Part shown: piece after piece, positions 13,789 to 33,088 of the stretch
How the letters are laid out: each line of letters opens with the position of its first letter
Numbering within the stretch: position 1 is the first letter of the stretch
Origin: Natrononativus amylolyticus
GTDB taxonomy: Archaea; Halobacteriota; Halobacteria; Halobacteriales; Natrialbaceae
Assembly (NCBI RefSeq): GCF_024362525.1
Contig: NZ_CP101459.1
Coordinates: 186,001-250,000, forward strand
Direction of reading: 5' to 3'
DNA length: 64,000 nt
Position numbers and translations under genes: made by a program
Notes under the pieces: model-generated
Seen by the model: the letters and a program-made list of their open reading frames with translations, nothing else
What the model was told of the DNA's origin: nothing
The model's database searches: none

Positions 13789-16700
13789 CTATTCGGCCGA
13801 CCACGACGAGACGAGCGGAATCGTCACGTCGTCGTCCTCGTCGATGATGTACCGGTAGCCGCCGTCTTCGAGCTGGTCGGGGTCCTCGAAGTCGCGGGTG
13901 AACGTCTTGTCGCCGACGTCGACCGTGACGAGGTTACCCCGGCCGCTCGAGAGCCCTTCGATCGGGTAGGCGCCGTTACCGCGACCGCGACGACTGCGTC
14001 CGAACGGCGGCTCCTCGGGGTCGGGGTGGCCCCGCCACGGGTTCGAGTCGTCGTTGTCGACGTAGACGAAGCCGGCGTGGCGCTCGAGTTCGCCGCGGTT
14101 GCCCGCGACCCGCATCGTGAGCTCGTTCTCGAGGCTGATATCGCGCGTGAAGTCCTCGACGAACGCCTGGACGGAGGCCGTCGACTCCTGGATCAGCGAC
14201 TCGCCGTCGACGACGAGGTGGGTGCCGTCGTGGACGTAGGCGTACTCCGGCTCGCCGTTCTCGACGGAGTAGAGGCCGAAGAAGCCCTTGAACTCGAAGG
14301 TGTCGTCGACGACGACGGTTGTGTCGTCGTCGAACGCGCAGACGACGTAGTCGGTCCGGCCGGTCGTCAGCTCGACTCGGACCGCCCGCGCGTTCGTCGG
14401 CTCGCCGTCCTCGTCGACGGCGGGCACGACGTCGACCGAGTCGACGACGCGGTCGCCCTCGTAGTGCTCGATCGTCGAGACGAACGTGCTCTCGAGGTCG
14501 CCGCCCGACCGGTTGAGGAACGCGTAGGGGATCGAGGGCTCCGGCGTCGCACCGTCGGTGCTGTTCGGCGGGTAGCCGTCCGCGATGGCGACCTCGTCGA
14601 ACTCGCCGAAAGATGTCAGCCGCATGGCGACGCCCTCGGCGTTGTCGTCGCGGAGGTCGAAGTGGTCCTCGACGTCCCACTCGATCGAAACCTTCTCGGC
14701 GGGGTCCGCGTCACGCGAGACGTTGTCGAAGTAGTTGTAGCCGGCACCTTCGGCCGCACCCCAGCCGGGGATCCGCTCGTCGTTGTAGTCCTCGTCGGCG
14801 TAGGGAACGTCCTCTCCGGCCAGCGTGCCACCGTCCTGGGGGACGAGCTCGAGCCCCTCGGTGTTCACGTCGGCTCGCGTCCCGTGGAAGCTGTAGAGGT
14901 GGTCCTCGCCGCCCGCGACGCGGAAGAAGTCGACCGCGTAGGAGTGTTCCTCGTCGACGGTGATCCAGGCGACGGCTCGCCGGTACTCGTCGGTCTCCTC
15001 GTAGACGTGCGGCGCCTCGACGTCGATCAGGTTCACGCGCTCGTCTTCGCCGTCGAAGTGACGCGGCAGGCCGACCCAGTGGTGTTGCTGGCCCGCCTTG
15101 TTCACGACGACGGTGTTGTGGCTGATCGTGTTGTCGGTGAAAAAGCGCCGCGGCGGGTGGTCGCCGGTCGACTCGGGATAGCCCAGGTCTCGAGCCAGCT
15201 CCATCTCGTTGGCCGCGAGCCCGACGTTCAGCGTGTCGCGGTGGCCGTGGACGGTGCCGCCGCCCTCGATGCCGTTGCGGCCGTAGTACATCCAGAGCTC
15301 GCGTTTGGTGTTCCCGAGGGTCGAGGCGCCGTCTCTGATCTCGCGATCCGTCGAGTCGAGTAACTCGAGGGTGTACAGCGCCATCCGGTAGCCGTTCGCG
15401 TCCTCGTTCCGACCCACGTTTTCGAAGCGGATCTCGGTCGTTCCCGCCGCCAGTTCGTGCGTGTACGTCAGGGTCTCGCGGCCGCTACCGTCGAACGCGA
15501 AGTCGACCGTGTCGACGTGCTCGTCGTCGATGTACACCTCGTAGATGCCGTAGGTGTCCGCGAACAGCACGTCGACGTCGAGGTCGTACTCGTCGCTCGC
15601 ACCGACGTCGACCGCGAACGTCCACTGTTCGCCCGCCTCGTCCGCGTTGAGCTGGATCGCCTCCGGGAAGCTGTCGTCGACGTGTGTCGACGCCTCCTCG
15701 AACAGAGTCGAGAAGTCGTGGGTGACGCCGTAGGAGACGGTCAGGTAGTTCTCGCCGTCGCGCAGGGCGGCGAAGCCGTAGCCCGCGAGGTTGTCGCTTC
15801 CGAGGTCGAGCGGTCCTTCGGCGTCGATGATCGACTGGATCTCCTCGTCGAGCCCCTCGGGGTCGGCGTCGAAGATCGACCCCTGGATGCCGTCGGTGGA
15901 GTAGCCGTTCAGGAAGTGCCAGAACTGGGCGTAGTAGCTGTCGCCGGTAACGTGGTAGCCGTCCTCGATCCCCGTCTGGCTCACCTGGTAGGGCGGGCTC
16001 ATATCGTAGGTGTGGGTGTCGCCGATCTCCGGGAACACCGTGTCGAGGAGCACGAGGTGGGAGTTGATTCCCAGCGCCTGCTGGAGCTTGGGGTGCTGGT
16101 AGAGGTCCGCGCCGTCGAAGCCGTCGTACCCCTGAAGCACCTCCGCGACTTGCCGGACCGAGGACATCTGGATGCGGTTGTACAGCTGTGCGGCCTCGTG
16201 CCAGTAGCCGTCGCGGTCACAGTCGTTGACGACCGGTACCAGCAGCTCGCCGCCGGTCGTGTTCCAGTTCTCCGGTTCCTCGTCCCAGACGTCGCCGTCG
16301 AAGATCTCGCCGCCGGGCTGGAACAGCCACTCGAGTGCTTCCCTGGTGTACCCCTCCTCGCGAACGTCGTCCTGAACGCGAGCCGAGACCGCGATCGTCG
16401 GGCGCTGGCCCCGGTCGGGGACGAGATCGGAGTTCTTGGCAGCGGGGAGCATCTCCATGATGAAGTTCTCCTCGATGTTCTCGCGAATCGCCTCGACGGA
16501 GTCCTTCGCCGGCAAACCGGGGTACTCGTCGACCCGGCCCTGCAGGAAGTCGAGCACTTCGTCGGCGACGTCCTCGTCGTCGAGGGCGGGGAAGAGCGCG
16601 TCGTACGCCTCGATCAGCGGCCGGACGAGGTTCGTCTCCCAGGAGCCGCCGATGACGCGCCCGGTCTGGCGGCCGCCGTGGTTGTTCCAGAAGCCGTCGA

Positions 16701-17580
16701 GCGACTGGGTGTACTCCGTGAGGTCCATCTCCGGGTAGACGTCCGCGATCCGATCGAGCATGACGAGCCCGGCGACGGCGTACTTCGAGTCGCCCGTCAG
16801 CAGGTAGGCGTCGGCGAGCGAGGGGACGAGGTCGTCGACGCCCCGCGGACGCCAGACGAACCAGTGGTTGTAGTAGGCGACGAAGTTCCAGCGGTTGCCC
16901 GCGCCGAGCCCGAGGTCGTTATTGTCGTCGTGCCAGCCCCAGCCGTCGTCGACGCCCCAGCCCTCGCCCATCTCGGGGTGCTCCTCGTTGACGAGCAGCG
17001 AGTCGTCGGCGAGGTCGGGGTCGAACATCCCGCGGTCGTCGAGGCCGCTCTCGCGGTAGGCCGCGAAGTCGTTCGTCGGGAAGACGAAGTTCCCGTCGCC
17101 GTGGGGGTTGTCGATCGCCGATTCGATCTTCCACGGCCTGTCCGTGCCGGGTTCGCTGTAACCGCCCAGCGCGTTTCGCTCCGAGGTCTCCCCGCCGCCG
17201 CGGGGGATCTTCTGGGAGGTGATCAGGCTCCAGAGACTCTCGAGGTCGGGGCCCCACCGATCGAGGTTCGATTCGGCAGTCGACACCGCGCTGTCCCGCT
17301 CGCTCGCCGCCCAGTCGTAGTTCTGGACGTTCTGGCGGGCGTTCTCGCGCATCTCGGTCGTGTAGAGCGTCGGCCGCGTCTTCAGGTGATAGGCGCCGTC
17401 GCCGCTCTCTTCGGCCGCGACGCTGCCGAAGCCGGTGAACATGCCGCCGACGATTCCTGCCCCGGTCGTCGCCAGCAACGTTCGCCGCGAGAATCCGCTT
17501 CTGTCGCGCGATTCGCCGGTATCGTACCCCGTTTCGTCTGACGGTCCGTTCGGTAGGCCCCGATGGCTATTGCCTGCCAT
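13789..17580 (-). CDS. Tat-exported heparinase II/III-like polysaccharide lyase, paralog 1
   Basis: The 1263-residue precursor has a twin-arginine signal (RR at 32-33, then TLLATTGAGIVGG) and no lipobox, so it is released or loosely bound outside the cell. A long helical part (about 70-600) resembles the alpha/alpha toroid of these lyases. An Ig/CBM-like beta-sandwich (about 630-735, with YGIYEVYIDDEHVDTVDF) is inserted before the lyase beta-domain. That domain carries HGHRDTLNVG near 777 and TISHNTVVV near 817, the typical heparinase II/III metal/catalytic segments. It is larger than characterised members (about 650-770 residues). It should cleave a uronate-containing glycan by beta-elimination. 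It is the lone member here; two paralogs lie at 25.5-33.1 kb. Confidence 0.85.
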   Translation of the reverse strand: MAGNSHRGLPNGPSDETGYDTGESRDRSGFSRRTLLATTGAGIVGGMFTGFGSVAAEESGDGAYHLKTRPTLYTTEMRENARQNVQNYDWAASERDSAVSTAESNLDRWGPDLESLWSLITSQKIPRGGGETSERNALGGYSEPGTDRPWKIESAIDNPHGDGNFVFPTNDFAAYRESGLDDRGMFDPDLADDSLLVNEEHPEMGEGWGVDDGWGWHDDNNDLGLGAGNRWNFVAYYNHWFVWRPRGVDDLVPSLADAYLLTGDSKYAVAGLVMLDRIADVYPEMDLTEYTQSLDGFWNNHGGRQTGRVIGGSWETNLVRPLIEAYDALFPALDDEDVADEVLDFLQGRVDEYPGLPAKDSVEAIRENIEENFIMEMLPAAKNSDLVPDRGQRPTIAVSARVQDDVREEGYTREALEWLFQPGGEIFDGDVWDEEPENWNTTGGELLVPVVNDCDRDGYWHEAAQLYNRIQMSSVRQVAEVLQGYDGFDGADLYQHPKLQQALGINSHLVLLDTVFPEIGDTHTYDMSPPYQVSQTGIEDGYHVTGDSYYAQFWHFLNGYSTDGIQGSIFDADPEGLDEEIQSIIDAEGPLDLGSDNLAGYGFAALRDGENYLTVSYGVTHDFSTLFEEASTHVDDSFPEAIQLNADEAGEQWTFAVDVGASDEYDLDVDVLFADTYGIYEVYIDDEHVDTVDFAFDGSGRETLTYTHELAAGTTEIRFENVGRNEDANGYRMALYTLELLDSTDREIRDGASTLGNTKRELWMYYGRNGIEGGGTVHGHRDTLNVGLAANEMELARDLGYPESTGDHPPRRFFTDNTISHNTVVVNKAGQQHHWVGLPRHFDGEDERVNLIDVEAPHVYEETDEYRRAVAWITVDEEHSYAVDFFRVAGGEDHLYSFHGTRADVNTEGLELVPQDGGTLAGEDVPYADEDYNDERIPGWGAAEGAGYNYFDNVSRDADPAEKVSIEWDVEDHFDLRDDNAEGVAMRLTSFGEFDEVAIADGYPPNSTDGATPEPSIPYAFLNRSGGDLESTFVSTIEHYEGDRVVDSVDVVPAVDEDGEPTNARAVRVELTTGRTDYVVCAFDDDTTVVVDDTFEFKGFFGLYSVENGEPEYAYVHDGTHLVVDGESLIQESTASVQAFVEDFTRDISLENELTMRVAGNRGELERHAGFVYVDNDDSNPWRGHPDPEEPPFGRSRRGRGNGAYPIEGLSSGRGNLVTVDVGDKTFTRDFEDPDQLEDGGYRYIIDEDDDVTIPLVSSWSAE

Positions 17581-17600
17581 GGTTTGCCATGGCGATGCCG

Positions 17601-17609
17601 GTAAATAAC
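17601..17609 (-). promoter_or_regulatory. TATA box for heparinase-like paralog 1
   Basis: On the minus strand GTTATTTAC lies 21-29 nt before the ATG at 17580. A second AT-rich run (minus-strand ACATATAAAA, 17621-17630) is 41 nt or more away. Two CCATGG palindromes (17577-17582 and 17587-17592) overlap the start-codon region. Confidence 0.45.
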
Positions 17610-17730
17610 AGTTACTGTGTTTTTATATGTATTCGATATTTCAGAACAGTAGGACAGAAGTTCGACTCGCGGAACGTCTCCGAAAAACGACCGACTCTGG
17701 TACCCGGCAACGAAGCCACAACGCCACAAG

Positions 17731-17740: not shown

Positions 17741-17760
17741 CCTCGCACGAGAGGGAGCGT

Positions 17761-19413
17761 ATGGTCGATTCGCCAGCGGAAATGTCGGAGCTGTCGCTTT
17801 CGGAAAAGGTCGGACAGCTGCTCCACGTCGGGATCGGGCTCGGCCACCTCGAGACCGACGAGGGGTGGCCCGACGAGGAGTTTCGCACCGTCCTCGAGGA
17901 GCTCAAACCGGGCGGGGTCAGAGTGTACGGAAATCACGCGGTCACCCCGCACTTCATGGCCCAGTACACGAACCGGATCCAGGAGTGGGCGGCGGAGACC
18001 TCCCACGGGCATCCCGTGTTGATCTCCTGTGACGGCGAGTACGGCACCGTCGACATCACCAGACACGAAGCGCAGGCGTATCCGGCGCTCATGGGACGAA
18101 CGGCGGCCGGCGATCGGACGCTCGCGACGGACGTCTCGAGCGCGGTCGCCCGCGACATGCTCGCGATCGGGTTGAACATGAACCACCAGCCGGTGGTCGA
18201 CGTCAACACGAACCCGGACAACCCGGTCATCGGCGTCCGTTCGCCCGGCAGCGATCCCGAGACGGTCGCCGACTACGCCGGGGCGGCCCTCGAGGGGATC
18301 CACGCCGAGGAGCAGATCGCCGTCGCGAAGCACTTCCCCGGCCACGGCGACACGGAACTCGACTCCCACGAGGTGTTGCCCCACGTCCGGTACGACCGTG
18401 AAACGCTCGAGGAGATCCACCTGCCGCCGTTCGAGGCGATGATCGAGGCGGGCGTCGACTGCATCATGACCTCCCACATCGTCGTCGAGTGTCTGGACGA
18501 CTCCCAGCCAGCGACGCTCTCGAGGCCGGTGCTCACCGGCCTCCTCCGGGAGGAACTCGGCTTCGACGGCGTCGTGATCACCGACGCGATGATGATGGAC
18601 GCTATCGCGGACAACTACGGCGTCGGCGAAGCGGCCGTCCGGGCGGTCGACGCCGGCGTCGACCTGATTCTGACCGGCTTCGTCCCCGCAGCGGACCTCC
18701 GGGAGACGCGCGACGCCCTCCTCGAGGCCGTCGAGGAGGGGCGACTGTCCGAGGAGCGCATCGACCGATCCGTCGAGCGAATCCTCGCGCTCAAGGAGCG
18801 CTACGACCTCGCCGAACGGCGGTCGGTCGATCCCCTCGCCGCCCTCGAGACGATCGGCGGCGACGAGGGAGGCGCGCTCGCCGTCGAGGCCTACGAACGG
18901 TCGCTGACGCTGCTCGGAAACGACGACCTCCTGCCGCTGGCGCCCGATTCGAACGTCCTCCTGACGGGAATCCGGGGCGTCCACGCCCTCGAGCCCCACT
19001 TCGACGCCACCTTCGGCGACGTCGTGAGCTGTTCGCTCGCCCCGGACCACGCGCGCATGCTCGACGACGTGAAACCGGAGACCGAGCCGGATTCGATCGA
19101 GACGCAACTCGAGACGCTTCGGTCGCTCGCGGGAGCCGTCGACGTCGCCGTCGTCACCACGTACTCCCGAGAGGAGTTCTCCGAGGACCAGCGTCGGCTC
19201 GTCGACGGTCTCGCGGCCGACCTGCCGGTCGTCGTCGTCTCGCTCGGCCTCCCGAACGAGTACGAACGGCTCCCGGCGGACGTCGCGTACCTCGCGACGT
19301 ACCTGCAGGATCGCCTCGGAATGCCGGCGCCGGTTCCCGACGCGGCCGCCGCCGCGATCGTCTCGACGCTCGAGCGAGACGTCGACGCCGTCGAGTCGCT
19401 CCCGATCGAGTGA
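17761..19413 (+). CDS. Glycoside hydrolase family 3 beta-N-acetylhexosaminidase (NagZ-like)
   Basis: The 550-residue protein has a GH3 TIM barrel with the NagZ signature KHFPGHGDTELDSH (about 190-203). That histidine-containing loop supplies the acid/base in beta-N-acetylglucosaminidases. The nucleophile Asp is in VITDAMMMDAI near residue 274. A second alpha/beta domain follows from about 370. The family removes terminal beta-linked GlcNAc, and some members are phosphorylases. There is no signal peptide, so it acts on imported oligomers. Together with the GH20 gene it points to an N-acetylhexosamine-containing substrate. The HEAT-repeat gene follows after 51 nt. Confidence 0.9.
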   Translation: MVDSPAEMSELSLSEKVGQLLHVGIGLGHLETDEGWPDEEFRTVLEELKPGGVRVYGNHAVTPHFMAQYTNRIQEWAAETSHGHPVLISCDGEYGTVDITRHEAQAYPALMGRTAAGDRTLATDVSSAVARDMLAIGLNMNHQPVVDVNTNPDNPVIGVRSPGSDPETVADYAGAALEGIHAEEQIAVAKHFPGHGDTELDSHEVLPHVRYDRETLEEIHLPPFEAMIEAGVDCIMTSHIVVECLDDSQPATLSRPVLTGLLREELGFDGVVITDAMMMDAIADNYGVGEAAVRAVDAGVDLILTGFVPAADLRETRDALLEAVEEGRLSEERIDRSVERILALKERYDLAERRSVDPLAALETIGGDEGGALAVEAYERSLTLLGNDDLLPLAPDSNVLLTGIRGVHALEPHFDATFGDVVSCSLAPDHARMLDDVKPETEPDSIETQLETLRSLAGAVDVAVVTTYSREEFSEDQRRLVDGLAADLPVVVVSLGLPNEYERLPADVAYLATYLQDRLGMPAPVPDAAAAAIVSTLERDVDAVESLPIE

Positions 19414-20643: not shown

Positions 20644-20711
20644 CTCGAGACTGCCGTGTTCGCGTTCCTGACCGCGAACACGGCGCCTCCTCGTCGCCGT
20701 CCGAACGCGAC

Positions 20712-20725
20712 CTACCGGCAGGTAG
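20712..20725. promoter_or_regulatory. Short inverted repeat upstream of the binding-protein promoter
   Basis: CTACC-GGCA-GGTAG lies 16 nt before the TATA box of the solute-binding protein gene, overlapping CGGCA-GGTAG-TGCCG. It could be an operator. The arms are only 5 bp, so it may be chance. Confidence 0.25.
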
Positions 20726-20740
20726 TGCCGATGCAATCAC

Positions 20741-20748
20741 GTATTTAC
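20741..20748 (+). promoter_or_regulatory. TATA box for the solute-binding lipoprotein gene
   Basis: GTATTTAC lies 28-35 nt before the ATG at 20776. This favours that start over in-frame upstream ones. Confidence 0.55.
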
Positions 20749-20775
20749 GGTCCGGTCGGCGAACAGATACGATAC

Positions 20776-22653
20776 ATGGTAATTACTGACAAGCACGGCG
20801 GTAGTAACGCGACGGAGACGGCGCTGACGCGGCGCAAGATGCTCGCGGCGAGTTCGGCGCTGCTCGCGGCCGGTGCGGCCGGCTGTCTCAGCGGCGGCGA
20901 GGACGACGACGGCGAGGACGGCGCCAACGGCGGCGGCGAGGCGGAAACGATCACGACGTGGACCTCGACCATCCCCGGCGAGATGAACCTCAACAGCATG
21001 GCGTCGGGGTTCCCGTGGGACGAGGAGTGGATCTTCTTCGAGCAGATCACCACGTTCTACGCCGACGGCGAGGTCGAACACGAACTCGTCGAAGACTGGG
21101 AGTACGACAACGACGACCGCACGCTCACCGTGGAGTTCGCCGACGGCTGGTACTGGTGGAACGGCGACCAGGTCACCGCCGAGGACATCTACTGGACCGA
21201 CATGGTCAGCCACCACAGCAATCCGGAGATCAGCCAGTGGGAGGACCTCGAGCTGGTCGACGAGATGACCATCGTCCGCACCTTCAAGGAAGAACAGAAC
21301 CCGATCCACATCGACTCGATGGTCAGCGGCGCCTTCGGAGAGACGGTTCGCGGCCACCGCGACTGGTACGAGCCGTGGGCCGAGCGACTCGCGGAGGCGA
21401 GCGACCAGGAAGAGCGCGCCGAACTCCAGGACGAACTCGCCGAGGAGATGCCGATTCACCTCTCGACGGCCGTCGAGGAGGGGCTCGGGAACGGCCCGTA
21501 CGCGATCACCGAGTTCGACGAGCAGTCGATCCGCCTCGAGTTGAACGACGACCACCCCTACGCCGACGAGATGGACATTCCCCGCCTCGAGATCATCCTC
21601 GCCGCGGACGACGCGCTCGCCCAGCGCATCCTCGGCGGCGACATCGACTTCGGGAGCGGGCTCCTCGAGACGCACATCGGCGACGCGGAGCGACCCGACC
21701 ACCTCGATGACGTCGTCCGGTACGACGACACGTACATGCGGAACGTCAAATTCTACGAGCAGGGGCCGGGCGAGGCGCACATGCGCACCCTGGAGGTCCG
21801 ACGTGCGATCGCGCACGTCCTCGATAATCCCGATATTTCGGAGAACTACGCCACGCCGAGTACGCCGCGGGAAGCACAGACCGGCATGACCGCCGCCGTC
21901 ACCGAGACGTTCTTCGACGACGAGTTTATCGACGACTTCATCGACTACCCGTACCAGGCCGACGAGGACGGTGCGATCGACCTGATGGAGTCCGCGGGCT
22001 ACGAACTCGACGGCGACGACTGGGTCGACGAAGACGGCGACCGGGTCGAACTCGAGATGGTGATCCCCGACCGGCACACGAACATCGCGCGAACGGTCGT
22101 CGATCAGCTCAACGAGTTCGGATTCACAGTGGATCTGAACGTCCTCGAGGGAGCGACGTACAACGATCGGCGCTCGGACGTGATCGACTGGGATCTCACC
22201 GTCGGCGAGCACGGCGGGATGATCGCCCACCCGTGGTACTACTTTCGGCTCGAACACCAGCACTCGAACGACTTCGGCGAGATCGACGTCGCGATGGACG
22301 CCATCGAGGAAGGCGAGACGCGCACGCCGTACAACGGACGCCAGACGGTCGTCGACCTCCCCACCGAGGTCGGCCAGGAAGATCCCAGCGGCTCGACCGA
22401 GGAGGTCAATCTCGTCGAACTCTACAACGAGTGGTGGATCACCCAGACCGACGAACGAAACCAGGAGATCGCCGAGACGTTCGCGTGGTGGTTCAACTAC
22501 TACGTCCCGATGGTCGACCTCGTCGAACTCGAGACGGGGTCGTTCGGAAACACGCGGGACTTCCAGTTCGACACGGAAACGAACGACTGGCAGACCTACC
22601 GGGGCGACTACCGCGCGCTACGTCGCGGCCGGATTACCGCCGGCACCGACTGA
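20776..22653 (+). CDS. ABC transporter solute-binding lipoprotein, family 5 (Dpp/Opp type), orphan copy
   Basis: The 625-residue precursor has a Tat signal (RR at 19-20) and lipobox AAGC with Cys37, followed by an Asp/Glu/Gly linker. The body fits SBP family 5, which binds peptides and, in several microbes, oligosaccharides such as chitobiose. Motifs include DGWYWWNGDQVTAEDIYW, RRAIAHVLDNPDISENY and the C-terminal WYYFRLEHQHSND. No permease or ATPase genes adjoin it. It is a full-length paralog of the binding protein at 57.7 kb, with the same length and the same RR and Cys positions, so it may dock on the same importer (60-64 kb). The frame is open upstream, but the TATA box and signal peptide set the start at 20776. 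Confidence 0.9.
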   Translation: MVITDKHGGSNATETALTRRKMLAASSALLAAGAAGCLSGGEDDDGEDGANGGGEAETITTWTSTIPGEMNLNSMASGFPWDEEWIFFEQITTFYADGEVEHELVEDWEYDNDDRTLTVEFADGWYWWNGDQVTAEDIYWTDMVSHHSNPEISQWEDLELVDEMTIVRTFKEEQNPIHIDSMVSGAFGETVRGHRDWYEPWAERLAEASDQEERAELQDELAEEMPIHLSTAVEEGLGNGPYAITEFDEQSIRLELNDDHPYADEMDIPRLEIILAADDALAQRILGGDIDFGSGLLETHIGDAERPDHLDDVVRYDDTYMRNVKFYEQGPGEAHMRTLEVRRAIAHVLDNPDISENYATPSTPREAQTGMTAAVTETFFDDEFIDDFIDYPYQADEDGAIDLMESAGYELDGDDWVDEDGDRVELEMVIPDRHTNIARTVVDQLNEFGFTVDLNVLEGATYNDRRSDVIDWDLTVGEHGGMIAHPWYYFRLEHQHSNDFGEIDVAMDAIEEGETRTPYNGRQTVVDLPTEVGQEDPSGSTEEVNLVELYNEWWITQTDERNQEIAETFAWWFNYYVPMVDLVELETGSFGNTRDFQFDTETNDWQTYRGDYRALRRGRITAGTD

Positions 22654-22737: not shown

Positions 22738-22763
22738 ACCTGTTGGTGGGAGATGGTGTCTGT

Positions 22764-24650: not shown

Positions 24651-24676
24651 CCGCGGACGAACCTTCCGAGCGCAAC

Positions 24677-24684
24677 TGTTTTAC
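24677..24684 (+). promoter_or_regulatory. TATA-like box for the second isomerase/epimerase-like gene
   Basis: TGTTTTAC lies 28-35 nt before the ATG at 24712 and supports that start over in-frame upstream ones. Confidence 0.45.
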
Positions 24685-24711
24685 CGTCCGAGTCACGTGC
24701 AGTTACCAGCC

Positions 24712-25482
24712 ATGAAATTCGGGTTGTGTACGCTCTCGCGGACCGAGTCGCCGGTCGAATCCGTCGTCCGGACGGCGGGGGACGTCGGCTACGACGGCGT
24801 CGAAATCTGGGGCAAAGATCACGTGGACAGCGGCGACGAGGGCGTCTGCCGGTCGATCCGCGACGCAGCGCAGACTCACGACCTCGAGATCCCGGTGTAC
24901 GGCTCCTACGCTCGAGCCGGCAGCGCCGAGTTCGGCGACGAGATTGCCGACGAGGTTGCGATCGCGGATCGGCTGGACGCGGACCTGATCCGCCTCTGGG
25001 CGGGGAGTCAGGAGTACGGCGATCACGACGACGCCCACTGGGAGGCGGTCGTCGAGGATCTGGAGACGGCCGCCGAGCTCGCCGCCGACCGCGGGCTCGC
25101 CGTCACCGTCGAGAAACACGCGAACACGCTGACGAACGACACCGAGGGCGCCGAGAGGCTGATCGAGGCCGTTTCTCACCCCGCCTGTCTGCTCAACTGG
25201 CAGCCCGTCTTCGGGATGCCCGCCGACGAGGTCGTCGCCGACGCCGAGCGGCTGGTCGGTCTGTCGAACAACGTCCACATCCAGGCCGTTCCCGATCCCG
25301 AGTCGAGCCCGAGCGACCGCTGCCTGCTCGAGGACGCCTACTTCGACGTCGAAGCGATCCTCGAGGTCTTCGCCGCGGACGGGTTCGACGGGTTCGTCAA
25401 CGTCGAGTTCGTCACCGACGACGTGGCGTACGAGGAGGCGATCGAGGCGGATCTCGAGTACCTCCGCTCGCTGGCAGTCTGA
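24712..25482 (+). CDS. Sugar phosphate isomerase/epimerase-like TIM barrel, second copy
   Basis: The 256-residue protein shows the AP2Ec/xylose-isomerase-like barrel: VGYDGVEIWGKDH, LDADLIRLWAGSQ, GLAVTVEKHANTLTND with a metal-binding Glu, NNVHIQAVPD, and FDGFVNVEFVTDD. It differs strongly from the copy at 5.4 kb, so it is not a recent duplicate. Likely activity is isomerisation or epimerisation of a sugar or keto-sugar, with unknown substrate. It ends 25 nt from the convergent stop of heparinase-like paralog 2. The frame is open upstream, but that extension is basic and lies before the TATA-like box. Confidence 0.75.
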   Translation: MKFGLCTLSRTESPVESVVRTAGDVGYDGVEIWGKDHVDSGDEGVCRSIRDAAQTHDLEIPVYGSYARAGSAEFGDEIADEVAIADRLDADLIRLWAGSQEYGDHDDAHWEAVVEDLETAAELAADRGLAVTVEKHANTLTNDTEGAERLIEAVSHPACLLNWQPVFGMPADEVVADAERLVGLSNNVHIQAVPDPESSPSDRCLLEDAYFDVEAILEVFAADGFDGFVNVEFVTDDVAYEEAIEADLEYLRSLAV

Positions 25483-25507
25483 AAGAGGGGAAACGAAGTC
25501 GCGGAGG

Positions 25508-28500
25508 TTACTCGTCGCGCGACCAGGTCTCTGCGACCGGGATCACCACGCCGTCGTTCTCGCCGACGATGTACTCGTAGCCGCCGTCCTCGAGTTCGTC
25601 GGGGTCGGTGAACGCCTTGATGAACGTCCGGTCGCCGACGTCGACGGTCACGCGGTTGCCGCCGGCGGACTCGATCGCCTCGACCGGGTAGGCGCCGTTG
25701 CGGGCGTGCGTGTCGGGCTGGTCGAACGGCTCGTCCACGTCGACGAAGACGAAGTCCGCCGTCACCGACGGCTCGTCGCCGATGGCCGCGGCGTCGTCGT
25801 GGTGGCCCTCGAGAGAGACCTCGAGTTCGTTCTCGTGGGCCATCTCGCGGGTGAAGTCGTTGATGGTTCCCGTGAACCGGCCGTAGGGACGCTGAATGAG
25901 GGGGCGCCCACCGACGGGCTGGAGCAGCCGGCCGTCCTGAACGTAGGCGAACTCGGGCTCGCCGCCCTCGACGGAGTACGCTCCGAGGAAGCCGCGGAAG
26001 CGGAACGTTTCGTCGACGGTGACGACGTCCTCCTCGCGGGAGTAGACCACGTAGTCGGTCCGTCCCGTCGCGAGGTCGACTTTGACCGCTCGCGCGTCAG
26101 CCGGCTCGCCGTTCTCGTCCACGACGTCGACCGTTTCGATCGCCTCGATGGCGCGGTCGCCCTCGTAGTGTTCGATCACGGACGTGAACGTACTCTCTAC
26201 GTCCTCGCCCTGACGATGGATCATCGCGTACCGCAGCGATTCGGGCTGGCCGCCGTGTTGCGGCGGTTCCCCGTCGGCCAGCGCCACCTCGTCGAACTCG
26301 CCGAAGGTCGTCAGCCGCATGTGGACCTCCTCGGCGTTATCGTCGCGGTGGCCCCAGTGGTCCTCGACGTCCCAGTCGATCGCGACCTTCTCGTCGGGGT
26401 CGTCGCCGCGCTCGACGTTCGCGAGGTAGTTGAAGCCGCTGCCGACCTCGTGGTTGTACGGGTGGTCCTCACCGTGGCCCGGCATCGGAATATCCTCGCC
26501 CGCGTACGTTCCCTCCTCTTGAGAGGCGAGGTCGACGCCCTCGGCGGTCGCCTCGCCGACCTGGCCGTGGAAGCTGAAGTGGTGGTCGTCGCCGCCGAGC
26601 ACGCGGAAGAAGTCCACCGCGTAGGAGTGTTCTTCGTCGACCTCTACCATCGCCAGCGTCCGCCGGTACTCCTCGGTCTGGGGGTAGACCTGCGGCGCTT
26701 CGACGTCGATCAGGTTCACCCGCTCGCTCGAGCCGTCGAAGTGATGCGGGTAGCCGACCCACTGGTCGCGCTGTTCTGACTCGTCGACGACCACGGTGTT
26801 GTGGCTCACCGTGTTCATCGTCCAGTAGTCGGCCTTCGGCCAGTCGCCGCCGGTCTGCTCGATGTAACCCAGGTCTGGCGAGAGCTCGAGTTCGTGGGCG
26901 GCGACGCCGATATTCAGCGCGTCGCTGTGGTTGTGGAACGCGCCGCCAGCGTTCGAGCCGTTGCGCCCGTAGTACAACCAGAACGCTCGCTTGGCGTTGC
27001 CGAGCTCCGCCTCGTCTCGGGCCTCCCGGGCCTCCTCGTCGAGCAGCGTGAGCGAGTAGAGCGCCATGAGGTAGTTGTCGGAGTCGTCGTTCTTCCCGAT
27101 ACACTCGAAGCGCATCGTGTTCGTCCCCGCCTGGAGGTCGTGGGAGTACGTCAGCGTGCTCTCGCCGCTGCCGTCGGCCATGAAGTCGATCGTGTCGACG
27201 TACTCGTCGTTGATCGTGAGCTCGTAGATGCCGTAGGTGCCGACGAACAGCGCCTCGATATCGAGGTCGTACTCGCCGCCCTCCTCTATGTCGAACTCGA
27301 AGGTCCACCACTCGCCGGGCTCGTAGGCCTGCAGCTGGATCGCGCGGTCGAAGCTGTCGTTGACCTCCGTCGAGGCCTCCGCGAACAGGTTCGAGGTGTC
27401 GAGGACGATACCCAGCGACCGGGCGTCGTAGTTGACGCCGTCGCGCAGCGCGGCGAAGCCGTAGCCCGCGAGGTTCTGGCTCGGCAGGTCGAGCGGTCCC
27501 TCGGCGTCGATAACTTCCTGGATGTCCGTCGCGAGCCCCTCGGGATCCTCGTCGAAGGCGTCGCCGCGGATGCCCACCGTCGAGTAGCCGTTCAGGTAGT
27601 GCCACGTCTGGGCGTAGATGGGGTCGCCGAGCGTCGTGAACCCGCCCTCGATCGCGCTCCCCGAGACGTAGTTATCGTTCGGGTGGGAGTTGCCGATCTC
27701 CGGCATGTGCTGGTCGAGCAGGAGCAGCGGCAGGTTCTGGGTCAACGTTCGACGGAACTTCGGGTGGTCGTAGAGGTCGGCGCCGTCGAACCCGTCGTAC
27801 CCCTGGAGGTAATCCGCCGTCTCGAGGTAGGAGTTGTTCCGGATCCGGTTGTACATCGGCGACGCCCGGTTGTTGTAGCCGTCGCGGTCGACGACGTCGA
27901 CCAGCGGCGCGAGGATGTTTCCGCCCGTGGTGATCCAGTTCCAGGGCTCCTCGTCCCACTGGTCGCCGACGAACAGCTCCTCGCCGGGCTGGAAGATCCA
28001 CTCGAGGGCCTCCTGGGTGTAGCCGTCGGCCTCGTCGAGCGCGCGGGCGGCCTGCGTGACGACGCTGTAGCCGCCGCTCTCGAGGACAACCTCGGAGTTC
28101 TCCGCGGCGGGGAGGATCTCCCGGTGGATGCCGTCCTCGATGTTCTTTCGGATCTCCTCGATCGAGCTCTTGCTCTCGAGGCCGGGATACTCGTCGGTCT
28201 TGGCCTCAAGGAACTCGACGAGTTCGTCGTCGCCCTCCATTCCCGGGAAGAAGGCGTCGTAGGCCCTGACGATCGGCCGCATCAGGTTCGACTCCCAGGT
28301 CGCGCCCTTGACCTTCCCGGTCATCCGCCCGCCGGTGCTGTTCCAGAAGCCGTCCAGGGTGTACACCGAGCTATCCATCTCGGGGTAGACGTCCGCGATG
28401 CGGTCGAGCAGCACCGAACCGGCCCGCGAGTAACGCCGGTCGCCCGTGTAGAGGTAGGCGTCCGTCAGCGCCTGGACGATGTTGAGGATGCCGCCGGGCC

Positions 28501-29200
28501 GCCAGACGTGCCAGTGGTTGTAGTAGGCCACGGGGTAGAGCCGCTCGCCGGCGCCTACGATGTCGCCGTCCTCGTCGAGCCAGCCGTAGCCGTCGTCGAC
28601 GCCCCAGCTTTCGCCCTTCTCGGGGTACTCCTCGTTGACCAGCAGGGAGTCGTCCGCCAGTTCGGGGTTGAACAGGCCCCGGTCGTCGAGCCCGCTCTCG
28701 CGGTAGGCCGCGAAGTCGTTCGTCGGGAAGACGTACTCCTCGCCGTCTGTACCACGTACGAAGAGCTTCCAGGGCCGGTCGGTCCCCGGGTCTCCGATAC
28801 CGGTATACACGTTCGCCCGGCGGGTCCCGCTCTCGCCGCTTCGGGGGAGCTGTTGGCCGGTGACCATACTCCAGAGGTCGTCCAGGCTGTACTCGTCGAG
28901 GTAGCCGTCCGCGCTCGAGACGGCGCTGTCGCGTGCCGACGCCGCCCAGTCGTACCGTTCGACGTTAGCGAGCGCGTTTGCCCGCATCTCCTCGGTCCAG
29001 ATCGTCGGTCGTGTCTTCGCGTTGAGTGGGTCCGAGTCGTCTGCGCCGACCGCACTGCTGGCCGGGAGCATCCCGGCGAGCAGTCCGGCACCGGTCGTCG
29101 TCAGTACCGACCGCCGCGACACGTCGAGGTTCGTCGCTTGATCGGAGTTCGAACCGCTCCGTCCCTTGCTATCGCTTTCGATCGGATCGTCGCTTGCCAT
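25508..29200 (-). CDS. Tat-exported heparinase II/III-like polysaccharide lyase, paralog 2
   Basis: The 1230-residue precursor has a Tat signal (RR at 29-30, SVLTTTGAGLLAG). The N-terminal helical region shares IWTEEMRANALANVERYDWA and NDFAAYRESGLDDRG with its paralogs. Then comes YGFAALRDG, an inserted beta-sandwich with YGIYELTINDEYVDTIDFM, and the lyase beta-domain with FHNHSDALNIG near 753 and TVSHNTVVVDES near 797. The promoter (minus-strand GCTATTTCG) favours ATG 29200 over a GTG at 29221. It is tandem with paralog 3, 156 nt apart, but has its own TATA box. Confidence 0.85.
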   Translation of the reverse strand: MASDDPIESDSKGRSGSNSDQATNLDVSRRSVLTTTGAGLLAGMLPASSAVGADDSDPLNAKTRPTIWTEEMRANALANVERYDWAASARDSAVSSADGYLDEYSLDDLWSMVTGQQLPRSGESGTRRANVYTGIGDPGTDRPWKLFVRGTDGEEYVFPTNDFAAYRESGLDDRGLFNPELADDSLLVNEEYPEKGESWGVDDGYGWLDEDGDIVGAGERLYPVAYYNHWHVWRPGGILNIVQALTDAYLYTGDRRYSRAGSVLLDRIADVYPEMDSSVYTLDGFWNSTGGRMTGKVKGATWESNLMRPIVRAYDAFFPGMEGDDELVEFLEAKTDEYPGLESKSSIEEIRKNIEDGIHREILPAAENSEVVLESGGYSVVTQAARALDEADGYTQEALEWIFQPGEELFVGDQWDEEPWNWITTGGNILAPLVDVVDRDGYNNRASPMYNRIRNNSYLETADYLQGYDGFDGADLYDHPKFRRTLTQNLPLLLLDQHMPEIGNSHPNDNYVSGSAIEGGFTTLGDPIYAQTWHYLNGYSTVGIRGDAFDEDPEGLATDIQEVIDAEGPLDLPSQNLAGYGFAALRDGVNYDARSLGIVLDTSNLFAEASTEVNDSFDRAIQLQAYEPGEWWTFEFDIEEGGEYDLDIEALFVGTYGIYELTINDEYVDTIDFMADGSGESTLTYSHDLQAGTNTMRFECIGKNDDSDNYLMALYSLTLLDEEAREARDEAELGNAKRAFWLYYGRNGSNAGGAFHNHSDALNIGVAAHELELSPDLGYIEQTGGDWPKADYWTMNTVSHNTVVVDESEQRDQWVGYPHHFDGSSERVNLIDVEAPQVYPQTEEYRRTLAMVEVDEEHSYAVDFFRVLGGDDHHFSFHGQVGEATAEGVDLASQEEGTYAGEDIPMPGHGEDHPYNHEVGSGFNYLANVERGDDPDEKVAIDWDVEDHWGHRDDNAEEVHMRLTTFGEFDEVALADGEPPQHGGQPESLRYAMIHRQGEDVESTFTSVIEHYEGDRAIEAIETVDVVDENGEPADARAVKVDLATGRTDYVVYSREEDVVTVDETFRFRGFLGAYSVEGGEPEFAYVQDGRLLQPVGGRPLIQRPYGRFTGTINDFTREMAHENELEVSLEGHHDDAAAIGDEPSVTADFVFVDVDEPFDQPDTHARNGAYPVEAIESAGGNRVTVDVGDRTFIKAFTDPDELEDGGYEYIVGENDGVVIPVAETWSRDE

Positions 29201-29224
29201 CAATTCGCATGAGACTTCCACTCA

Positions 29225-29233
29225 CGAAATAGC
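29225..29233 (-). promoter_or_regulatory. TATA box for heparinase-like paralog 2
   Basis: On the minus strand GCTATTTCG lies 25-33 nt before the ATG at 29200, predicting a leaderless mRNA that begins after the alternative GTG at 29221. Confidence 0.55.
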
Positions 29234-29356
29234 TTCCGGCTATGGCCACTATCATCGCTCGTGAGAGAAAGATCGGATCGCAGAACCTCGAGGAGGGTTG
29301 ACGGGCCCCGCTGCGGTTCCGAACAAAGGAACTGCCGGTGACGAGCGACAGTACCC

Positions 29357-32300
29357 TTATCTCCCGTCCCACGCCGCCGACAGCGGGATGCGGATGTCGT
29401 CATCCTCGGAGATCATGTACTCGTAGCCGCCGTCCTCGAGTTGGTCGGGGTCGGTGAACTGGCGGACGAACGTCTGGCGTCCGACGCCGACGGTGTACCG
29501 GTTGCCGTGCCCGGACTCGATGTCCTCGATTTCGTAGACGCCGTTGCCGCGGCCGCGCTGGCCACTCGCAGCCAGTTTCTCCTTGGGGTCAGCGTCGTCG
29601 CGCCACGGGTTAGAGTCGTCGTTGTCGACGTAGACGAACCCGGTGTGGCGCTCGAGGTCGCTGCGTCCGCGCATGAGCTGAACGTCGAGTTCGTTCTCGA
29701 GGCTCATGCCGCGAGTGAAGTCCTCGACGACGCCGCCGACGAAGCCCTGGGACTCCTCGACGAGTGGCTCCTCTTCGTCAGTGGGGGCCAGCAGCGTGCC
29801 GTCGTGGACGTAGGCGTACTCGGAGTCGCCGCCCTCGACGCAGTAGACCCCGAAGAAGCCCTCGAACTCGAACGTATCGTCGACGACGACCTCGTCCTTT
29901 TCGAACGAGCAGACGACGTAGTCCGTGCGGCCGGTCGTCAGTTCGACCTTGAGCGCGCGGCCCTCGCCGCCGGCGACCTCGACCTCCTCGACGTCCTCGA
30001 CGACGCGCTCGCCGTCGTAGTGCTCGATGAGCGAGAGGAACTCGCTCTCTACGTCCTCGCCCTCGCGGTTGAACAGCGCGTAGTCGAGGGAGTCCGGATT
30101 GCCGTCGCGGTCGGGCGGGTGGCCGTCGGCCAGCGCCACTTCGTCGAACTCGCCGAACGTGGTGAGCCGGAGGTGGACGCCCTCCGCGTTATCGTCGCGG
30201 TGGCCGTAGTGGTCGATCACGTCCCAGTCGACGGTCACTTTCGAGCCGGGGGAGTCGTCGCGGGCGACGTTCGTGAGGTAGTTGAAGCCGCTGCCGTTCT
30301 CCTGGTTGTACTCCGTGTCCTCGCCGTAATCGGGCTTGGGAACGTCCTCACCGGCGTAGGTGCCGCCGTCCTGGGGAACGAGGTCGACGCCCTCTGCAGA
30401 CGCCTCGCCGGCCTGCCCGTGGAAGCTAAACACGTGGTCGTCGCCGCCGGCGACTCGGAAGAGGTCCACGCCGTAGGAGTGGGCCTCGTCAACCTCGATC
30501 ATCGCCGTCGTCCGGCGGTACTCTTCACACTGGTCGTAGGCGCGGAACGCGTCGACATCGATCAGGTTCACCCGCTCGTCCTCGCCGTCGAAGTGCCGCG
30601 GGATGCCGACCCAGTGGCTGTCTTGCTCCGACTCGTCGACGGTCACCGTGTTGTGGCTGATCGTGTTCTCCGTCCAGTTGAGTCGCTTGGGGTGGCTACC
30701 GGTTTCTTCCGGATAGCCGAGGTCGGGCGCGAGTTCGAGGTCGTGAGCTGCGACACCGATGTTGAGTGCGTCCTTGTGGTTGTGGGAGTGAGTTCCGTTT
30801 CGGCCGTAGTACATCCAGATAGCGCGCTTTGCGTTGCCGAGGGCTGCCTGCTCGTCGTCCTGATCTTCCTCGTCGAGAACGGCGATCTCGTACAGCGCCA
30901 TCAGATAATTGTCGGAGTCGTCGTTCTTGCCGACACACTCCAGGTACATCTCGTTGGTTCCCTCGAGGAGGTCGAGGTCGTACGAGATGGTGTCGCGATC
31001 GTCGGCGTCGGCCATGAAGTCGATCGTGTCGACGAGTTCGTCGTTGACGTACAGCTCGTAGATTCCGTAGGTGGTCGGACCGAACAGGGCATCGATCTCG
31101 AACTCGTACTCGCCGCCCTCCGCGAGGTCGAACTCGAAACGCCACCACTCGCCCACGTCATTGGCCTGTAGCTGGATCGCCTCGGGGAAGCTGTCGTTGA
31201 CCTCGACCGATGCCTCGACGAAGATCTCCGAGGTGTCGAACGCGCCAGCGCGAATCTGCAGGCCGTAGTTGTTTCCGTCTTTGAGGGCTGCAAAACCGTA
31301 TCCTGGGAGATTTCGGCTGGGGAGGTCGAGAGGGCCTTCGGCCTGGATGATCGCATCGATTTCCTCGGAGAGTCCTTCGGGATCCTCGTCGAAGATCGAC
31401 CCCTGGATGCCGTCCGTGGAATACCCCTGGTCGAAGTGCCACACCTGGGCGAACAGGGACTCTCCGATCACCTCGAACCCTTTCTGAATGCTGGTCGAGT
31501 TCCACTCAGAGGTGTACGGTCCGTGCTGGTTTCCGATCTGCGGGGTAAACCGGTCGATTACGAGCAACGGCACGTTCACGTCCAGCGACTGCTGGAGCTT
31601 CGGGTGCTGGTAGAGATCCGCGCCGTCGAACCCGTCGTACCCCTGGAGGTAGTCGGCGACCTCGCGGGTGCCGCTTAGCTGGATAGTGTTGTATCCCGGT
31701 CCCGCTCTGTTGTTGTACCCGTCTCGATCCCAGACGTCGACCATCGGAACGAGGAGGCCTCCGCCAGTGGCGTTCCAGTTCTCGGGTTCTTCGTCCCAGA
31801 CGTCGCCGTCGAAGATGTGCTCGCCGGGCTGGAACACCCACTCGATCGCCTCTTTGGAGTAACCATCGGGCTCGTCGAGGACGCGGGCGGCCTGGACGAG
31901 GGCGCTATTCCCGCCGCTGTCCATGTTGATGTTCTTCATCGCCGGAAGGATCTCCCGAAGGATGTTGTCCTCGATGTTCTTTCGAATCTTCTCGACGGAG
32001 TCCTTCTCCTCGAGTCCCGGGAACTCGTCGGTCTTGGCCTCGAGGAACTCGACGAGTTCGTCGTCGCCCTCCATCGCCGGGAAGAAGGCGTCGTACGCCT
32101 GGATGATCGGCCGCAGGGCGTTCGACTCCCAGTAGGCGCCGACGACCTTTCCGGTCTGCATGCCGCCGTGGCTGTTCCAGAAGCCGTGGAGCGTCTCGGT
32201 GTACACCGTCATGTCCATCTCGGGGTAGACGTCGGCGATTCGGTCGAGCATGACCGTGCCTGCCCGCGCGTACTCCTGGTCGCCCGTCAGCAGATACGCG

Positions 32301-33088
32301 TCGGTCAACTCCGTCAGCACGCGCGAAATGCCGCCACCGTGGTGCCACACCGCCCAGTGGTTGTAGTGGGCGACGAAGTTCCAGCGAGTTCCCTCTCCGG
32401 CACCGAGGACGTTCTCCTCGTCGTACCAGCCCCAGCCGTCGTCGACGCCCCAGCCCTCGCCGAGTTCGGGATGCTCCTCGTTAACGAGCAGGTCGTCGTC
32501 GGCGAGGTCGGGATCGAACATCCCGCGGTCGTCCAGCCCGCTCTGGCGGTACGCCTCGAAGTCGTTCGTCGGCACCGTGATGGTCCCCTCTCCTTCGGGG
32601 TTGTCGACGCCGGTGTCCGTCTTCCACATCTGACCGTCTCTCTCCCCATCTTGAGAGATGAACCGCGTTGGTCCGGGCCCGGCGCCGCGGGGGATTTTCT
32701 GGGAGGTCACCACTCGCCAGAGGCTCTCGAGGTCGGGGGTGTCCGCGTCCGAGCCGAACCGTCCCTGCCAGTCCTCGAGCCGGGACTCGACCCTCGAGAT
32801 GGCGCTGTCTCGCTGGTCTTCCGCCCAGTCGTACTGCTCGACGTTGTTTCGAGCGTTTTCACGGTCTTCCTCGGTCCAGATCGTCGGTCGGGTCTTCGCG
32901 TTGAGCGCGTCGGACTCCTGGGCTCCGGCCGTCCCCGCCGTCGACAGGAGTCCGCCGAGGATTCCCGCCCCGGTCGTCGCCAACATCGATCGTCGCGAGA
33001 GGTCGAAGCGTCCCGTCGAATCGACGACAGAACACAATCGGTCATGAGTCCACTCACCGCTGCTATCGCTCCGCTCGTTGCGTGCCAT
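29357..33088 (-). CDS. Tat-exported heparinase II/III-like polysaccharide lyase, paralog 3
   Basis: The 1243-residue precursor has a Tat signal (RR at 32-33, SMLATTGAGILGG). It shares the layout of the other two: helical toroid, YGFAALKDG, an inserted beta-sandwich (FGPTTYGIYELYVNDELVDT), and the lyase domain with SHNHKDALNIG near 765 and TISHNTVTVDES near 810. The C-terminus DPDQLEDGGYEYMISEDDD is common to all three. No membrane anchor or sorting signal is visible at the C-terminus. It should cut a uronate-containing polysaccharide outside the cell; the substrate is unknown. Confidence 0.85.
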   Translation of the reverse strand: MARNERSDSSGEWTHDRLCSVVDSTGRFDLSRRSMLATTGAGILGGLLSTAGTAGAQESDALNAKTRPTIWTEEDRENARNNVEQYDWAEDQRDSAISRVESRLEDWQGRFGSDADTPDLESLWRVVTSQKIPRGAGPGPTRFISQDGERDGQMWKTDTGVDNPEGEGTITVPTNDFEAYRQSGLDDRGMFDPDLADDDLLVNEEHPELGEGWGVDDGWGWYDEENVLGAGEGTRWNFVAHYNHWAVWHHGGGISRVLTELTDAYLLTGDQEYARAGTVMLDRIADVYPEMDMTVYTETLHGFWNSHGGMQTGKVVGAYWESNALRPIIQAYDAFFPAMEGDDELVEFLEAKTDEFPGLEEKDSVEKIRKNIEDNILREILPAMKNINMDSGGNSALVQAARVLDEPDGYSKEAIEWVFQPGEHIFDGDVWDEEPENWNATGGGLLVPMVDVWDRDGYNNRAGPGYNTIQLSGTREVADYLQGYDGFDGADLYQHPKLQQSLDVNVPLLVIDRFTPQIGNQHGPYTSEWNSTSIQKGFEVIGESLFAQVWHFDQGYSTDGIQGSIFDEDPEGLSEEIDAIIQAEGPLDLPSRNLPGYGFAALKDGNNYGLQIRAGAFDTSEIFVEASVEVNDSFPEAIQLQANDVGEWWRFEFDLAEGGEYEFEIDALFGPTTYGIYELYVNDELVDTIDFMADADDRDTISYDLDLLEGTNEMYLECVGKNDDSDNYLMALYEIAVLDEEDQDDEQAALGNAKRAIWMYYGRNGTHSHNHKDALNIGVAAHDLELAPDLGYPEETGSHPKRLNWTENTISHNTVTVDESEQDSHWVGIPRHFDGEDERVNLIDVDAFRAYDQCEEYRRTTAMIEVDEAHSYGVDLFRVAGGDDHVFSFHGQAGEASAEGVDLVPQDGGTYAGEDVPKPDYGEDTEYNQENGSGFNYLTNVARDDSPGSKVTVDWDVIDHYGHRDDNAEGVHLRLTTFGEFDEVALADGHPPDRDGNPDSLDYALFNREGEDVESEFLSLIEHYDGERVVEDVEEVEVAGGEGRALKVELTTGRTDYVVCSFEKDEVVVDDTFEFEGFFGVYCVEGGDSEYAYVHDGTLLAPTDEEEPLVEESQGFVGGVVEDFTRGMSLENELDVQLMRGRSDLERHTGFVYVDNDDSNPWRDDADPKEKLAASGQRGRGNGVYEIEDIESGHGNRYTVGVGRQTFVRQFTDPDQLEDGGYEYMISEDDDIRIPLSAAWDGR

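Follow-up and report, generated by a model that had tools for sequence, protein, structure and literature searches.

Three paralogous lyase-type genes in Natrononativus amylolyticus

We analyzed 64,000 nucleotides of the haloarchaeon Natrononativus amylolyticus (family Natrialbaceae; contig NZ_CP101459.1, positions 186,001 to 250,000; hereafter the window, numbered from its first letter), which carry three paralogous genes for putative exported polysaccharide lyases of the heparinase II/III fold. The open reading frames (ORFs), reported at these positions by a first-pass annotation made from the sequence alone, were confirmed:

13789..17580, minus strand: P0001, lyase paralog of ortholog group A, 1263 amino acids (aa)
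25508..29221, minus strand: P0002, lyase paralog of ortholog group B, 1237 aa from a GTG; the likely start is the ATG (codon 8) at 29200, giving 1230 aa
29357..33088, minus strand: P0003, lyase paralog of ortholog group C, 1243 aa; structure predicted

The proteins are 57-62% identical to one another (alignments A1-A3), and the 1230 aa given by the first-pass annotation as the shortest length probably refer to P0002 from the ATG at codon 8. Their replicon measures 768,154 bases in a genome of 3.99 Mb (three contigs), and their coding statistics are haloarchaeal (GC content at third codon positions 0.86-0.92, acidic residues 20-22%). A genome search found no PF07940 proteins other than these three, which scored 30.7 (P0001), 25.8 (P0002) and 38.7 bits (P0003) against Hepar_II_III_C (gathering cut-off 24). 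In each of them the match begins at profile position 32-36, directly past an inserted domain described below. No NCBIfam model matched P0001-P0003, and no close relative with a solved structure was found.

Twin-arginine (Tat-type) starts were present on P0001-P0003 and on solute-binding proteins, and the motifs YGFAAL(R/K)DG, YGIYE, H-x-H-x-D and SHNT each occur in all three lyases. The signal and motifs that had been described for these genes, including HGHRD, HNHSD and HNHKD, could all be located in the respective copies. Plasmid records label relatives as "heparinase II/III family protein" and one as "PKD domain-containing protein". Scans of the window for promoters, terminators and inverted repeats showed no notable element.

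Predicted fold and catalytic residues

An AlphaFold2 model was calculated for P0003 only, using the mature protein together with 70 other alignment rows. With a predicted local distance difference test score (pLDDT) of 89.7 and a predicted template modeling score of 0.85, the model shows the lyase fold of an alpha-toroid and an antiparallel beta-sandwich. The following catalytic and structural features were assigned:

31334..32893, minus strand: N-terminal helical toroid of P0003, approximately residues 66-585 (model secondary structure and structural alignment range)
31691..31693, minus strand: Tyr466 of P0003, predicted catalytic acid (71/71 relatives)
15235..15249, minus strand: HGHRD of P0001, residues 778-782 (aligned to PL40 His485/His487, the base His and the metal-relay His)
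26921..26935, minus strand: HNHSD of P0002, residues 763-767 (motif match)
30770..30784, minus strand: HNHKD of P0003, residues 769-773 (conservation and profile alignment)
30647..30658, minus strand: SHNT of P0003, residues 811-814 (conservation and motif match)

The heparinase II/III toroid and beta-sandwich expected by the first-pass annotation was borne out by structural comparison, in which the P0003 model matched PL40, PL17, PL12 and PL21 enzymes. VIA-align ranked the PL40 ulvan lyase Uly1040 first (Z 38.2, root-mean-square deviation 3.5 A over 718 residues, 15% identity), followed by PL17 (Z 34-35), PL39 (30.6), PL12 (28) and the epimerase DS-epi1 (26.5; 6hzn, 591 residues), with PL15 (26.5), PL35 (26.3), PL21 (25) and PL33 (23) at lower ranks.

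Residues were compared in alignment A3, whose 71 rows are 68 of 80 near-complete relatives plus the three window proteins; it omits two relatives with the insert (L047:9983, L090) and ten without it (L098, L103, L105, L107, L109, L110, L111, L117, L119, L122). Y466, H769, H812 and N813 (P0003 numbering) are present in all 71 rows, D773 in 70 and H771 in 69. P0003 H769/H771 align with His485/His487 of Uly1040, and the Tyr466 region aligns with the Tyr region of PL17. Mutants of Uly1040 identified His485 as the base, His487-Mn-Asp358 as the relay of His485 and Tyr305 as the acid (PMC12915356). By these comparisons, H-x-H-x-D and SHNT are the catalytic and metal motifs of the superfamily and not special to P0001-P0003. 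Candidate sites for a counterpart of the neutralizing pair Asn245/Trp246 of PL40 are position 438, with W or Y in 46/71 rows, and an N-H-W motif at 243-245. The above-cut-off C-terminal match, the toroid and sandwich of P0003, and the conserved Tyr and His-x-His place the proteins in the Pfam PF07940 superfamily.

Could P0001-P0003 be ordinary ulvan lyases (PL40 or a sister family), with a locus for ulvan or a similar algal polymer? Uly1040 is the best match by structure and also by the lyase family profile run against PDB sequences (E 2.8e-13), and sulfatases, one of which is encoded in the window, occur in ulvan loci too. Yet the profile similarity to Uly1040 is confined to positions 688-1043, the C-terminal half holding the beta domain, with no significance over the N-terminal domain, and PL17 is equally near (AlgL17, E 4.6e-13). 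Moreover, the locus encodes two N-acetylhexosaminidase types (GH20 and a NagZ-like GH3), which fit amino sugars, whereas ulvan is built from rhamnose, xylose, glucuronic acid and iduronic acid. We regard this explanation as improbable.

The three proteins could also be uronyl C5-epimerases, or inactive binding proteins, and not lyases. The extended match to DS-epi1 (human dermatan sulfate epimerase 1) speaks for an epimerase and against a lyase, and DS-epi1 is described as sharing the catalytic apparatus, the Tyr/His set, with these lyases (PMC11848413). The match to PL40 and PL17 lyases is far better (Z 38 and 35), however, and the locus is catabolic in content (importer, hexosaminidases, sulfatase, dioxovalerate dehydrogenase). 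We therefore give the epimerase explanation little credence.

A putative binding module inserted beside the catalytic histidines

All three lyases are interrupted in the hairpin between ALRDG and the strand WMYYGRN, whose second strand runs into the catalytic His-x-His:

15352..15735, minus strand: inserted binding-module domain of P0001, approximately residues 616-743 (approximate edges, transferred from the P0003 model)
27035..27418, minus strand: inserted binding-module domain of P0002, approximately residues 602-729 (approximate edges)
30869..31255, minus strand: inserted binding-module domain of P0003, residues 612-740 (MiXBM-like)

The insert of the P0003 model matched the xanthan-binding module MiXBM (7ehg) with Z 18.1 and 1.9 A over 125 residues at 17% identity. 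The family profile over the insert detected 7ehg (E 8.3e-12) and residues 794-902 of a Paenibacillus xanthan lyase (6f2p; E 3.8e-8). On the model and these profile matches, the insert is a carbohydrate-binding-module jelly roll, closest to MiXBM and to the tail module of the Paenibacillus xanthan lyase. The first-pass annotation had proposed an Ig/CBM-like insert; the inserted beta-sandwich is real, and an Ig domain in particular was rejected by the structural and profile matches to binding modules. Detection required the family profile: phmmer of the insert alone against PDB sequences gave chance-level matches only, and Pfam searches of the inserts returned CBM_35 in two of three (best E 0.084) and CBM_6 in one (E 0.038; 14.7 bits against a gathering cut-off of 28.9), none above cut-off.

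The structure 7EHG is listed with the xanthan lyase of Microbacterium sp. XT11 (PMC10881899), and CBM84 accounts for most of the xanthan-binding modules in P. nanensis and Microbacterium XT11 (PMC11002231). By fold and sequence similarity to xanthan-binding modules the insert would thus go with CBM84, the CBM84 status of 7ehg and of the 6f2p tail being taken from these two sources. Xanthan-binding modules fused to a catalytic domain raise the affinity for xanthan (PMC10049358). Because the second strand of its hairpin ends at the catalytic His pair, the insert probably keeps the polymer in place at the cleft.

The three proteins had been described as about 500 residues longer than typical heparinase II/III lyases. 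This holds against PL12 and PL21 enzymes of 640-750 residues; the insert contributes only about 130-145 of these residues to each lyase, and the PL40 enzyme Uly1040 has 856.

The insert appears old and repeatedly lost

Comparison with close relatives, some of which have no insert, did not support a fixed subfamily architecture. In A3 the stretch from ALRDG to WMYYGRN spans either 27-43 residues (19/71 rows) or 167-201 residues (52/71 rows), with no intermediate lengths, and among the 80 near-complete relatives on genome contigs the insert is present in 51 and absent from 29. On a tree of the core only, the presence or absence of the insert requires 11 changes, nine or more of them on well-supported branches, compared with a mean of 17.0 for shuffled labels. 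Core and insert distances are correlated (r 0.79; 0 of 999 permutations as high), and nearest neighbors agree in only 26/52 rows. These sequences are most simply explained by a single old insertion that was then cleanly lost many times, and there may have been some regain or exchange of the insert.

Sister modules stand in front of the enzyme in bacterial relatives, for example as three copies in locus L083 and five in L079. A module tree was built from copies in loci L046-L122 covering at least 70 model positions plus the three window copies; it has few columns and rough support. In this tree 45 of 47 N-terminal copies (plus one non-lyase copy) form one clade, apart from 56 internal copies. 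We therefore do not favor the view that N-terminal modules were repeatedly captured into the hairpin; the two exceptions are very long branches from L085.

The same data bear on whether the insert, instead of being a binding module, has a structural role as a lid or spacer, shaping the cleft or aiding solubility at high salt. Its root beside the catalytic His pair, its dispensability in 29/80 relatives and its co-divergence with the core would all suit such a part. Against this stand the clear match of the insert, by fold and by profile, to xanthan-enzyme binding modules, the N-terminal tandem arrays of sister modules in bacterial relatives, which are unlikely to act as lids there, and the wide occurrence of the module in Paenibacillus, which are not extreme halophiles. 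We consider a lid or spacer rather unlikely, and a binding role remains our preferred interpretation of the insert.

Several variants of the architecture were observed among relatives. Those from Paenibacillus (L083, L116, L119, L079, L081 and others) have between one and five insert-type modules at the N-terminus and lengths of 1600-3260 residues, and Paenibacillus contaminans and P. oceani hold many paralogs. In Cohnella, a protein encoded beside the lyase gene (L058, 14782-19104, plus strand) has an insert-type module (E 1.1e-17), although the core model does not class it as a lyase. Copies from Haloferax, Halogranum and Haladaptatus (L096, L100 and, in L013, 5670-9638 and 36215-39904) have, at a second site after HHFSFHG, an unrelated insertion of about 210 residues; it had no Pfam match in L100 and L096, and a two-sequence model was all-beta at low confidence (pLDDT 49.8). 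In one Saliphagus-type copy (L047 9956-13936, L004 874-4854) the first ~180 residues are tandemly repeated at the N-terminus.

Three ortholog groups

The ortholog tree comprised 36 rows, namely 33 chosen locus proteins and the three window proteins, with near-copies omitted. P0001 falls into a ten-row group A (support 100/100) with copies from Natrinema, Halomontanus, Halovivax, a Natrialba-like genome, genus g5 and the Saliphagus-like genome G026. P0002 groups with two Natronococcus copies (group B, 94/99), and P0003 with copies from G026, Halomontanus, Halovivax and genus g5 (group C, 100/100). Several genomes hold group A and group C copies side by side. Since the nearest relatives of each paralog come from other genera and not from its own genome, we rejected a recent tandem duplication.

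The groups also differ near the predicted active site. The stronger difference is a Glu five residues before the catalytic Tyr, which is found in 10/10 group A rows and in 0/9 rows of groups B and C, which have Arg or Ile instead; over A3 it is present in 65/71 rows. Glu301 of Uly1040 affects activity (PMC12915356), but its spacing from the Tyr is four, so that the equivalence of the two positions is uncertain. Likewise, the first x of H-x-H-x-D is G or A in 10/10 group A rows and N in 9/9 rows of groups B and C, while the x positions vary widely over the whole lyase family. The first-pass annotation had read the differing surroundings of the His motif as a sign of different cleavage specificities. 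These differences do track the three supported groups, and the group-wise residues are the best sequence evidence for differing specificity of the copies; they are compatible with specialization. P0001-P0003 are old, separately conserved paralogs, probably for different repeat units or sulfation states.

A conserved catabolic gene cassette in haloarchaea

The lyase genes are accompanied in the window by the following genes:

33211..34977, minus strand: GH20 beta-N-acetylhexosaminidase (GGDE motif, no signal peptide seen)
17761..19413, plus strand: GH3, N-terminal domain only, NagZ-like (KHFPGHG motif; no twin-arginine start)
8182..9660, minus strand: sulfatase (CLPSR motif, SGSH_C-type C-terminus, no signal seen)
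12108..13667, plus strand: 2,5-dioxovalerate (alpha-ketoglutarate semialdehyde) dehydrogenase (NF052305, 841 bits; cut-off 750)
54857..55819, plus strand: DHDPS-superfamily protein (best model 5-dehydro-4-deoxyglucarate dehydratase, below cut-off)
48447..50087, plus strand: enolase-superfamily (MR_MLE_C) protein
36048..36962, minus strand: SDR-family dehydrogenase
57707..59698, minus strand: Tat-type solute-binding protein SBP_bac_5
60191-62380 and 62731-63753: ATPase and permease-like protein, forming with the SBP_bac_5 at 57707..59698 an oligopeptide/oligosaccharide-type ABC importer
20656..22653, plus strand: second SBP_bac_5 solute-binding protein
22743..24650, plus strand: gamma-glutamyltranspeptidase (Tat-type N-terminus)
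5402..6271, plus strand: AP_endonuc_2 TIM-barrel protein (sugar isomerase/3-keto-lyase type); a second one at 24565-25482
51023..53227, minus strand: two Gfo/Idh/MocA oxidoreductases; three more at 10970-12136, 37065-37958 and 38011-39117
39225..40823, plus strand: D-aminoacylase-type amidohydrolase (82-83% identity in three other loci)

We take the CLPSR, GGDE and KHFPGHG motifs to mark the sulfatase, GH20 and GH3, respectively. GH3, HEAT, solute-binding, gamma-glutamyltranspeptidase and TIM-barrel genes occupy the plus strand between P0001 and P0002.

Homologs of the window neighbors surround haloarchaeal lyases at 30-88% identity, whereas bacterial lyase loci share at most one distant gene with the cassette, for example DegT. 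On annotated plasmids of Halomontanus rarus, Natronococcus sp. CG52, Natrinema zhouii and Haladaptatus sp. YSMS36, lyases stand beside sulfatase, GNAT, Gfo/Idh/MocA and ABC genes; GH20 is found in three of these four, GH3 in two and a PIG-L deacetylase in two. A lyase copy on plasmid 2 of CG52 has unrelated genes around it.

Among 391 genomes of the class, 24 had lyase matches at E <=0.001, 14 of them at E <1e-100. All eight Natrialbaceae among these 14 carry GH20, each within 5 kb of a lyase, compared with 11 of the 383 other genomes (Fisher test, P = 6e-12, not corrected for the relatedness of the genomes).

Gamma-glutamyltranspeptidase (22743-24650), M14 peptidase (55913-57001) and prolyl-oligopeptidase-type (46456-48510) genes accompany several lyase loci, company that could hint at a peptide- or glutamyl-linked glycan. 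The ORF at 44769-46397 (minus strand) encodes a SufS-type cysteine desulfurase fused with a NifU-like N-terminal domain and has an 82% identical counterpart in the Halomontanus rarus locus. ARAGORN called a 94-nt tRNA-Asp at 24053-24146 (minus strand), antisense inside the gamma-glutamyltranspeptidase gene, which is probably a false call.

Proposed function

From the observed sequence, predicted fold, conservation, insertion history and locus conservation we infer lyase activity, chemistry, substrate, transport and pathway order. With moderate confidence, we propose that P0001-P0003 are exported, beta-eliminating lyases of the heparinase II/III fold that act on a sulfated hexosamine-uronate polymer, carry an inserted binding module and feed an oxidative pathway. 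The exported lyases would bind a 1,4-linked uronic-acid polymer in the cleft between toroid and beta-sandwich, where the first His of H-x-H-x-D, helped by the second His and a metal, would abstract the C5 proton and Tyr466 (P0003) would donate a proton to the leaving sugar. Oligosaccharide products would be taken up through the ABC importer, and the cytoplasmic sulfatase, GH20 and GH3 would desulfate and trim them. The uronate end could then be oxidized to 5-dehydro-4-deoxyglucarate, dehydrated by the DHDPS-type enzyme and converted through 2,5-dioxovalerate to alpha-ketoglutarate. Such a route could operate here, with the DHDPS protein below its model cut-off and the first oxidation lacking a named enzyme. 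In its five Gfo/Idh/MocA and two AP_endonuc_2 genes the locus resembles gene sets of 3-keto-glycoside pathways, which could take the place of a GH88.

Besides the fold, the conserved residues, the insert and the shared locus, this proposal is favored by the Tat-type starts on the lyases, with none on GH20, GH3 or the sulfatase, and by the dioxovalerate dehydrogenase scoring above its curated cut-off. Several points weigh against it. The usual partner for unsaturated uronates is GH88/105, which is above cut-off in only one of the eight lyase-bearing Natrialbaceae, compared with 60/391 genomes of the class and 4/6 other strong lyase genomes, and in this genome KduI does not reach its cut-off; the steps that usually follow are thus missing, and the seven Natrialbaceae genomes with no GH88/105 over cut-off would suit the epimerase explanation. 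The GH20 association comes from related genomes, with 0/6 of the other strongly lyase-bearing genomes having GH20. The closeness of insert and cleft is taken from sequence position, the model being ligand-free. Finally, we found no measured activity of any member of this lyase family in the literature.

A further idea is that the haloarchaeal plasmid loci form a dedicated system for consuming a polymer of archaeal surfaces. This would be a sulfated glycan of hexosamine and uronate from the S-layer or wall, perhaps with gamma-glutamyl links; the lyases would carry their removable binding module next to the active site, and the products would follow an oxidative route that needs neither GH88 nor KduI. 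The idea arises because the wall polymer of Natronococcus is glutamylated and glycosylated (PMC4243693) and the locus contains a gamma-glutamyltranspeptidase. We think this unlikely at present and offer it as speculation. If true, it would explain why haloarchaea that fail to grow on alginate or pectin possess polysaccharide lyases: a 2022 survey reported haloarchaeal polysaccharide lyase genes, described them as nearly unknown in archaea and did not find their action, in strains not growing on either polymer (PMC9726719).

Beyond the first-pass annotation, the analysis identifies the insert and its apparent repeated loss, sorts the copies into three ortholog groups and shows that a catabolic cassette is conserved around them in haloarchaea. 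A lyase family with a conserved locus and three ortholog groups offers defined genes and a short list of substrates, and the matched enzymes with and without a module at one hairpin beside the active site, from which it seems to have been cleanly removed many times, are a natural experiment in enzyme design.

Comparison with known systems

Our search for work on heparinases and polysaccharide lyases in haloarchaea found none on this family, with subscription journals mostly outside its coverage. Among the closest known systems are the haloarchaeal PL8 hyaluronate/chondroitin lyases (PMC13260240), which likewise are plasmid-borne, Tat-exported and directed at an acidic polymer; PL8-bearing haloarchaea grow on hyaluronan and chondroitin, and the one use of "heparinase" in that work is for a tree outgroup. 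They differ in belonging to another family, in length (804-823 aa) and in their proposed GH88/GH154 and KduI/KdgK route (PMC13260240). No significant PL8 match was found in this genome, by a search that gave no match in a control genome either, so that absence is unproven.

In structure, the PL40 enzyme Uly1040 (PDB 9vtk; PMC12915356) shares the full-length toroid and antiparallel beta-sheet fold, the matching His pair and a likely counterpart of the acid Tyr, but it has no inserted module and comes from an ulvan locus without the haloarchaeal cassette. The PL17 oligoalginate lyases (Alg17C 4nei, AlgL17 9irq) share the fold, the His motif, an HNT-type motif and the aligned Tyr region. They differ in their alginate substrate, their length of about 705 residues and the lack of an insert, and show no match past residue ~1029 of the P0003 model. 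The PL12 and PL21 heparinases (5jmf, 4mmh, 2fuq) belong to the same fold superfamily (Z 25-28) and differ in having 637-747 residues, no insert and 12-13% identity. The insert itself shares its fold and detectable sequence similarity with MiXBM 7ehg and the C-terminal module of 6f2p; whereas the 6f2p module is terminal, that of P0001-P0003 interrupts the catalytic beta-sandwich.

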